Shown: positions 58,701-61,388 of the stretch, one piece after another
How positions within the stretch are numbered: the first letter of the stretch is position 1
How the letters are laid out: every line of letters begins with the position of its first letter
Origin: Clostridiales bacterium
GTDB lineage: Bacteria; Bacillota; Clostridia; Peptostreptococcales; Anaerovoracaceae
Direction: 5' to 3'
NCBI GenBank assembly: GCA_022763735.1
Contig: JALEQY010000051.1
Coordinates: 32,286 to 96,285 of the forward strand
DNA: 64,000 nucleotides
Position numbers and translations under genes: made by a program
The notes under the pieces: model-generated
What the model was told of the DNA's origin: nothing
Seen by the model: only the letters and a program-made list of their open reading frames with translations
Database searches by the model: none

Positions 58701-60404
58701 CTACTCTTCGTCTTTTTCGTTTTCTTCCTGTATGAAATATCCGAAATTCACACCTGACAATGCAGCATCAGCTATATTGGCACAGGAGCTGCCCATCCTG
58801 TCTATGCTGTGAAGTACAGTCGTGAACGCACTTGTCAGCTCTGCCCTGCATTTGCCTTTGTTTACACGTTTTACATGATTCTTCCTCATATTTATATCAA
58901 GGTCCAGAACCTTCTCTTTCTTTTTGGTTATCTTTCTGGCATTTTCCAGCTCGCCTGTACGTATGGCAATCATAGCTTCCTTGTACATATCTTCAATCAC
59001 GTCGAGACTTTCGGTTATGTCTTTCGTCGCATCTTTGGAAAACTTATTCTTTTTCTCCAGACCACCTTTTACAGATTCAGCCGCTTCTGTACACAGCATA
59101 CCCATCCTGTCGACATCACTGAGAATATACATCAGCCCTGCAGTCTGGGATGCCTGTTCTTCAGTAAGGACACCTGCCGAAAACATATTAGCCAGATATT
59201 CCATAATCCTGTTGTACAGCTTTCGTATATTGTTTCCATCCTCATTGATTTCTTCAATTTTCCTGTTTTCTCTTTCTCCTACAGCCGTTTTGACCTTATC
59301 CAGCAGCTCACACACCAGATCGCTGCAGTGAAGTACTTCTCTTGCAGCCATTTCCAGGGCTGCGGCAGGCTGTCCTATCATCTTGTCATCAAGAAACAGC
59401 GGCTCGCCGCTGGCGGCAATAATCGTTTTGCCGTCCGGAATTATTCTGGTGACTATCTTGACAAGAAGCCATATCAGCGGCAGCCATATCAGCGTCATCG
59501 TAATGTTGAATACCGTATGGGCGTTCGCAATCTGTCTTGCTATTACCTCAACTTCCGGTCCCTTGGTTGATATCATCGTGATGAACTGTGCATATGGCTT
59601 GGTGAACCATATGAACAGCAATGCACCGGAAATATTGAAAGTACAGTGAGCAAGCGCCGTTCTCTTTGCATCTTTTGACTGTCCGATACATGCAATAAGC
59701 GCAGTGATTGTGGTTCCGATATTATCGCCGAGGAGAACAGGGATCGCTCCGGCAAGACCCATTATACTTGTCACACCGTCCGGACCGGCCTGTGATGCAA
59801 AATTCTGAAGTACGGCAATTGTTGCACTGCTGCTCTGCACTACCAGTGTCATTAATGTTCCGACAGCAACTCCAAGCACCGGTACGTCCGACACATGTTG
59901 TATCATGGAAATGAACACAGGACTTGATGCCAGAGGTTTCATCACAGATCCCATTATTTCAATACCTTCAAACAGAAGTCCGAATGAGAATATCGTCTGA
60001 CCTATGCTTTTTATCTTTTCGTTTTTCATAACAAAGGACAATATGAATCCGATAAATATTATTATCAGAATATAGTCGCTTATTTTGAAGGCCAGCAGCT
60101 GTGCTGTCATCGTAGTTCCTATGTTAGCTCCAAGAATAACCGAAATTCCCTGGGGCAGTGTCATAAGTCCTGCACTTACGAAACCTATGACCATTACCGT
60201 TGTGGCACTGCTGCTCTGAAGAACTGCAGTTGTCAGAGCACCTGCCAGAACACCCATTACCGGGTTTATTGTCAGTATGCCCAGTATCTTTTTCATTTTT
60301 TCGCCGGCAGCCTTCTGCAGGGATTCACTCATCATATTCATTCCGAAAATGAATATTGCCAGTCCCCCCAGCAGTCCAAATACTGTCTGTAAAATCTCAT
60401 TCAT
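58701..60404 (-). CDS. Na/Pi cotransporter family protein with C-terminal PhoU-like domain
   Basis: LFGMNMMSESLQKAAG-type N-terminus, duplicated QSSSATTVMVIGF and QSSSATIAVLQ motifs, C-terminal helical PhoU-like region. Confidence 0.92.
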   Translation of the reverse strand: MNEILQTVFGLLGGLAIFIFGMNMMSESLQKAAGEKMKKILGILTINPVMGVLAGALTTAVLQSSSATTVMVIGFVSAGLMTLPQGISVILGANIGTTMTAQLLAFKISDYILIIIFIGFILSFVMKNEKIKSIGQTIFSFGLLFEGIEIMGSVMKPLASSPVFISMIQHVSDVPVLGVAVGTLMTLVVQSSSATIAVLQNFASQAGPDGVTSIMGLAGAIPVLLGDNIGTTITALIACIGQSKDAKRTALAHCTFNISGALLFIWFTKPYAQFITMISTKGPEVEVIARQIANAHTVFNITMTLIWLPLIWLLVKIVTRIIPDGKTIIAASGEPLFLDDKMIGQPAAALEMAAREVLHCSDLVCELLDKVKTAVGERENRKIEEINEDGNNIRKLYNRIMEYLANMFSAGVLTEEQASQTAGLMYILSDVDRMGMLCTEAAESVKGGLEKKNKFSKDATKDITESLDVIEDMYKEAMIAIRTGELENARKITKKKEKVLDLDINMRKNHVKRVNKGKCRAELTSAFTTVLHSIDRMGSSCANIADAALSGVNFGYFIQEENEKDEE

Positions 60405-60444: not shown

Positions 60445-61335
60445 CTACTTGTTAAGCTGTTCCCATTCCTTTACCGTACCATCATATATATCTTTAAGCT
60501 GCCCGATAGAAATATCCTGCAGCGGGTTTTCTTTATTTACTGTTATCAGGATTCCGTCTTTGGCAATCATATCATATGAAAGCAGTTCCTTTTCATAGCT
60601 TTCAAGTTCACGGGAAGCCATGGCAAGATCACATTCACCCTGAATCGCAGCTGTAAGCCCCCTGGTGGAATCGGATTCTTCTACTATGATTTCTGCCCCC
60701 GGATTATATGTACTGTAATCTTCAGCCAGTTTCTTCATAAGCGGTGCTACAGAGGTTGAGCCTTCTATTTTTATTTTCCCTGATGATTTGTATGACAGAA
60801 AACTTGTCTCGCTTCCTATCGCAACGAAATCTTCTGCTACAATTGCCTGTCCTGCACCTTTGACATATTCCAGAAAATCCCGTTCGAGATCACTCAGTTT
60901 TCCTGAATAAGCCAGATAAAATGATCTGCTGAGGGGATACTTCCCGTTTTCTATTGTATCCTCATCCGGGAATACTCCATTGACCGAAAGAGTTTTTACC
61001 TCTGAATTGCTGTCAACTGTACCTGCAGAAACATATCCTATCGCTGAGCTGTCTTCTTTCACAGCTTCCAGGACGCTTTCACCGGATTCTTCGATCTTAG
61101 CATCATCTCTTGTCATATCACTTGCTGTTTCCGATGCACTGCTCTCCAGTCCTGTAAGCTGTGCGAAAACCGCACGGGTTCCTGAGCCTTCTTCTCTGGC
61201 AATAGCTTTCACCTCTGCCAGCTTATCAAGGCCTTCAACATTACTTCTTCCAGTCTGTTCATTGTCCGCACATGCATACAGACATGTACCGGCAATCAGT
61301 GCTGCGGCCATTATAAAAACTACCTTTCGTTTCAT
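60445..61335 (-). CDS. PstS-like phosphate-binding lipoprotein with circularly permuted halves
   Basis: Lipobox LYAC; C-half motifs first (REEGSGTRAVF, AIGYVSAGTV, YPLSRSFYLAYSG, GQAIV), then N-half motifs (IEGSTSVAPLMKKLAEDY, GECDLAMASREL, GQLKDIYDGTVKEW). Confidence 0.85.
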   Translation of the reverse strand: MKRKVVFIMAAALIAGTCLYACADNEQTGRSNVEGLDKLAEVKAIAREEGSGTRAVFAQLTGLESSASETASDMTRDDAKIEESGESVLEAVKEDSSAIGYVSAGTVDSNSEVKTLSVNGVFPDEDTIENGKYPLSRSFYLAYSGKLSDLERDFLEYVKGAGQAIVAEDFVAIGSETSFLSYKSSGKIKIEGSTSVAPLMKKLAEDYSTYNPGAEIIVEESDSTRGLTAAIQGECDLAMASRELESYEKELLSYDMIAKDGILITVNKENPLQDISIGQLKDIYDGTVKEWEQLNK

Positions 61336-61388
61336 ACAGGACCTCCCTTTCTTGATCTTATTGACTAATCATATTTTAAATGAACAGT

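Follow-up and report, generated by a model that had tools for sequence, protein, structure and literature searches.

A circularly permuted PstS-like lipoprotein encoded beside a Na/Pi symporter-PhoU gene in a Clostridiales genome

SP_2084 of Streptococcus pneumoniae is the binding protein of the pneumococcal Pst1 system, which is strongly induced at low inorganic phosphate (Pi) (PMC4913102, PMC6722419). Its crystal structure, 4h1x, was released in 2012 under the database name PstS 2, and the gene belongs to the Pst1 operon, an operon of the Pst ABC type (SP_2084-8, PMC6722419) that has no symporter pairing. The PstS proteins of Clostridium perfringens (4gd5, 4q8r) and Vibrio cholerae (1twy) represent the canonical arrangement, and Arg125 of the C. 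perfringens protein contacts phosphate (PMC12421899). A natural circular permutation has been described in another tethered ligand-binding lipoprotein, Tp0684 (MglB-2) of Treponema pallidum, whose authors suggested that permutation is an adaptation to tethering (PMC4990184). However, Tp0684 is a Type I/cluster B glucose-binding protein, and its permutation is independent of the one reported here.

Sodium/phosphate importers of the NptA-PhoU type carry Na_Pi_cotrans and PhoU domains. In the pneumococcus, the NptA symporter imports phosphate with low affinity (PMC4913102); in Staphylococcus aureus, the PhoU domain of NptA regulates Pi signalling (PMC13170248). A dedicated binding protein has not been reported for the described importers (PMC4913102, PMC13170248).

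The window analysed here, a stretch of 64,000 nucleotides from a Clostridiales genome, encodes a lipoprotein in which the two halves of PstS are swapped, followed after 40 bp by a Na/Pi symporter gene on the same strand. The features of the locus, in order of coordinates, are as follows.

58701 to 60404, minus strand: Na/Pi symporter with C-terminal PhoU domain (NptA type), 567 amino acids (PF02690, PF01895, TIGR00704, NF037997)
60445 to 61335, minus strand: circularly permuted PstS-like lipoprotein, 296 amino acids (sequence, profile and PDB matches, AlphaFold2 model, Foldseek)
60448 to 60783, minus strand: equivalent of the N-terminal half of ordinary PstS, residues 185-296, with GSTSV, SDSTRG and ASREL (profile and PDB matches)
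60784 to 60810, minus strand: linker uniting the former C- and N-termini, approximately residues 176-184 (gap between the half-matches)
60811 to 61215, minus strand: equivalent of the C-terminal half of ordinary PstS, residues 41-175, with REEGSGTR, AIGYVS and YPLSRSF (profile and PDB matches)
61270 to 61335, minus strand: signal peptide and lipobox, residues 1-22, ending in CLYAC (sequence, homologue alignment, model)
61341 to 61349, minus strand: strong ribosome-binding site of the pstS-like gene, AAGGGAGGT (sequence)

The lipoprotein gene is an intact open reading frame with the same boundaries as in the preliminary description of this DNA. Its lipobox-like LYAC ends at Cys22, which is aligned in 39 of 40 permuted homologues. 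In the AlphaFold2 model the N-terminus forms a helix (residues 3-20) within a region of low pLDDT (residues 1-30). Promoter and terminator scans gave results no better than those of shuffled sequences.

Both homologous halves of the phosphate-binding fold are present in the lipoprotein, in the order C-half then N-half instead of the canonical N-half then C-half. The profiles TIGR02136 and PF12849 each match it in two pieces whose order is reversed, and the best PF12849 piece places residues 184-293 on profile positions 8-125. Because the permutation prevents a single full-length match, the TIGR02136 score of 158.6 bits, made up of two stretches, is below the curated cut-off of 206.6 bits. The canonical C. 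perfringens and V. cholerae structures, which have homologous halves and the same phosphate-site residues in the opposite half order, also align as two swapped pieces: their first half corresponds to residues 173/183-294 of the query, and their second half to residues 41-170. In contrast, a single end-to-end alignment joins 4h1x to the query (chain positions 10-264 on residues 41-294; E 6.5e-50), with 37% identity in the structural match, and a profile of 40 permuted proteins finds it with an E-value of 4.2e-102. Both the swapped-piece and the end-to-end alignments are far beyond chance. The Pfam, NCBIfam and PDB comparisons thus bear out the preliminary claim that the C-half directly follows the lipobox. 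Comparing the two halves of the lipoprotein with each other revealed no meaningful similarity. The gap between the two half-matches has a median of 14 amino acids across permuted homologues. In the permuted chain, the new termini lie where the junction of the former N-half and C-half was opened, and a linker of about 14 residues bridges the old ones.

Structure prediction, which had been proposed as a check, yielded a confident model with a single PBP fold that runs in C-N order over the whole chain (AlphaFold2, pLDDT 91.8, pTM 0.83, with the 40 permuted proteins as input alignment). In a Foldseek search of the PDB, 4h1x matches the model over the whole chain (TM 0.95 by target, rmsd 1.3 A, 257 columns), and the other PDB chains among the matches listed have a TM of at most 0.51. 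Because Foldseek is sequence-order dependent, 4h1x as the sole whole-chain match is the pattern expected of a permuted topology. The phosphate-contact residues of the PstS family (the R of SRE/REEGSGT, GSTS, SR) are kept. The PDB alignment maps R47 onto the phosphate-contacting Arg125 in the C. perfringens protein (PMC12421899), and R47, G52, T53, S193, S195, S223, S241 and R242 are invariant in the 40 permuted proteins. These residues suggest that the lipoprotein binds Pi.

In a draft genome of 157 contigs such as this one, a permutation could be only apparent, through faulty assembly, a wrong gene model or the decay of a pseudogene. This explanation has virtually no chance of being correct. 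The reading frame is open, a ribosome-binding site is present and the ligand residues are intact, and the same order in the orthologues of other genomes and in the 4h1x crystal structure refutes it. An assembly rearrangement at 60777/60778, which the preliminary description had named as a possible source of error, is ruled out by close orthologues in six independent genomes that share the order.

Clostridia commonly carry the permuted form. Of 293 genomes sampled across the class, 157 have a PstS match, and for 58 of them the top match (E at most 2e-38) spans the query in permuted order; the remainder mostly give two-piece matches, as canonical PstS does. The genome itself has a second permuted PstS lipoprotein (G000:C12, L002), which heads a pst operon. 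This copy, unlike the one in the window, is followed by pstC and pstA, and it belongs to a different sub-clade. Homologues with the same half order had been recommended as a check and are thus available in 4h1x, in this pst-operon PstS and in the six orthologues. Sequence, phylogeny and the model matching 4h1x uphold the proposed circular permutation of a PstS-type fold, but the rarity implied by the preliminary description does not stand. The idea that the order is unique to this locus was likewise rejected, as the permuted form is common in Clostridia and also occurs on a Treponema plasmid. The latter copy (Treponema saccharophilum, NZ_AP025290.1, 32215-32985) is a one-piece match outside Bacillota, and suggests horizontal spread of permuted PstS beyond that phylum.

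A tree was built from 88 permuted and 37 canonical proteins from the loci, plus three PDB sequences, all rotated into a common order. The permuted proteins form a single clade of 87 rows, including 4h1x (SH-aLRT 99), which fits one origin. Two long-branch permuted rows (L163, L164) are placed among canonical rows. However, holding all 89 permuted rows together improves the likelihood by 7.7 units (AU p 0.59), which disfavours several independent permutations. A single origin, in Bacillota, is most likely. The two outlying proteins (L163:1959-3056 and L164:1042-1947) are highly divergent and lie beside pstC and pstA. They are possibly early branches, and separate permutations are less likely.

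The tandem duplication that had been proposed as the source of the permutation is plausible, but gained no support from the 139 PstS ORFs compared (102 in C-N and 37 in N-C order, some being the same gene in overlapping loci), among which there is no intermediate with three or four halves and no fused one. Tandem duplication of pstS into separate genes does occur, since a pst operon that begins with a pair of neighbouring permuted pstS copies is present in two genomes belonging to one family (L161:2877-4752, L162:2724-4717).

The most informative feature of the locus, which is absent from the preliminary description, is that the lipoprotein is paired with a Na/Pi symporter-PhoU gene and not with pstC-pstA-pstB. 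The symporter has two Na_Pi_cotrans repeats (PF02690, 208.9 bits in 2 stretches) and a PhoU domain (PF01895), and scores over the cut-offs of TIGR00704 and NF037997. The lipoprotein belongs to a sub-clade of seven members (support 98), all of which precede a symporter gene on the same strand with gaps of 3-94 bp. The hosts are six Lachnospiraceae-type genomes and one genome of another family (G511). The other six lipoproteins, from a Dorea sp. MAG (L032), Faecalicatena contorta (L033), G115, G117, G261 and G511, have the same permuted order and 42-56% protein identity to the window copy, and those of the Dorea MAG and F. contorta are its closest relatives. The sister of this sub-clade, L006:1495-2367 (G041:C48), adjoins neither pstC nor a symporter.

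The symporters of the seven pairs group together too, within a clade of 13 rows (support 100). The six other symporters in this clade have no adjacent lipoprotein, which indicates that the symporter does not need one, and the tree requires three gains or losses of the pairing. At about 40 other Na/Pi symporter loci inspected, no adjacent permuted PstS was found. No orthologue of the lipoprotein was found among 48 genomes of the same genus, whereas a RarA-like housekeeping gene on the same contig is typical of the genus (87% identity). The pair was therefore probably acquired horizontally, and the RarA-like gene led us to reject contamination of the genome bin.

We think it somewhat probable that the permuted Pi-binding lipoprotein was recruited to the Na/Pi symporter-PhoU protein encoded next to it, where it would serve as a subunit for capture or sensing. 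The permuted clade would normally serve PstCAB, and the sub-clade seen in the window would have been redirected to the symporter. Because the permuted SP_2084 belongs to an operon induced at low Pi, a role of permuted PstS proteins in Pi uptake is plausible. The lipoprotein, a presumed membrane-anchored and phosphate-binding member of this clade, may take up Pi in its inter-lobe cleft at the cell surface and hand it to the symporter, which would raise the effective affinity. Alternatively, it may report extracellular Pi to the symporter. Given the low affinity of pneumococcal NptA (PMC4913102) and the regulatory PhoU domain of S. aureus NptA (PMC13170248), a capture protein would be a sensible addition. 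The conserved arrangement of the two genes suggests that they are co-transcribed and that their products cooperate physically. Several points count against recruitment: no binding protein has been reported for the NptA proteins characterised so far (PMC4913102), the pairing is seen in seven genomes only, and six symporters of the same clade lack the lipoprotein.

Instead, the lipoprotein could bind substrate for the Pst ABC transporter of contig C12, in addition to the PstS of that system, with the symporter as no more than a co-regulated neighbour in a phosphate regulon. The PstS of the genome's own pst operon is indeed in the same permuted clade (38% identity to the window copy), six of the seven genomes with the pair encode PstC, and NptA and Pst coexist as separate systems in S. 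pneumoniae (PMC4913102). However, every PstC in these genomes adjoins a separate, dedicated PstS; in the window's own genome, pstC and pstA lie beside another PstS on C12, apart from the window copy. This PstS is permuted in three genomes but canonical in G115, G117 and G261, where the symporter-linked protein is permuted. Moreover, G511 has the pair but no PstC that can be recognised (best match 35.5 bits against a cut-off of 196, in a draft genome that is 96% complete). The dedicated PstS proteins and the suggestive case of G511 argue that the partner of the lipoprotein is the symporter, and we regard service to the Pst transporter as unlikely.

It is also improbable that the lipoprotein hands over no substrate and instead buffers phosphate, or senses Pi outside the cell and thereby regulates the symporter or the PhoU domain of the symporter. 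The C-terminal PhoU domain of the partner would suit a sensor, given the regulatory role of this domain in S. aureus NptA (PMC13170248), and the permuted Tp0684 has been proposed to be a chemoreceptor (PMC4990184). Nevertheless, a signal from the lipoprotein would have to cross the membrane domain to reach PhoU. In known systems PhoU is on the cytoplasmic side, and we know of no signalling path that leads to it from the lipoprotein through the membrane domain.

If recruitment is correct, the pair might work like TRAP and TTT systems without being a member of either, since its transporter is a Na_Pi_cotrans protein and its binding protein is of the PBP_like_2 type. A third kind of binding-protein-dependent secondary transporter, in which a permuted PstS lipoprotein delivers phosphate to NptA-PhoU, is conceivable but doubtful. 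It would be analogous to TRAP and TTT systems, but with a Pst-type binding protein and a type II Na/Pi cotransporter as its components.

The permuted layout is of a kind already seen in the 4h1x crystal structure. Despite the release of this structure in 2012, a literature search that reached few subscription papers turned up no description of the PstS permutation or of the pairing with a symporter. The layout explains why such proteins give split profile scores. Permuted PstS is also a well-bounded natural example of circular permutation, for which a large sister group retains the original order. What is new is the symporter-linked sub-clade, which points to the recruitment of a Pst-type binding protein to a secondary transporter, and which makes the use of dedicated binding proteins by Na/Pi symporters directly testable.

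Other arrangements of Na/Pi symporter-PhoU genes also were observed. Two or three such genes occur in tandem or close together at L071:1-4536 (contig C29 of the same genome), L082, L083 and L085, and at L071 a Mem_trans (membrane-transport) gene on the opposite strand lies between the symporter genes. In a neighbourhood that recurs, ORFs of about 350 amino acids with weak MinD/ParA-like matches (L087:2044-3162, L109:2327-3400, L110:1182-2228) precede several unpaired Na/Pi symporter-PhoU genes.
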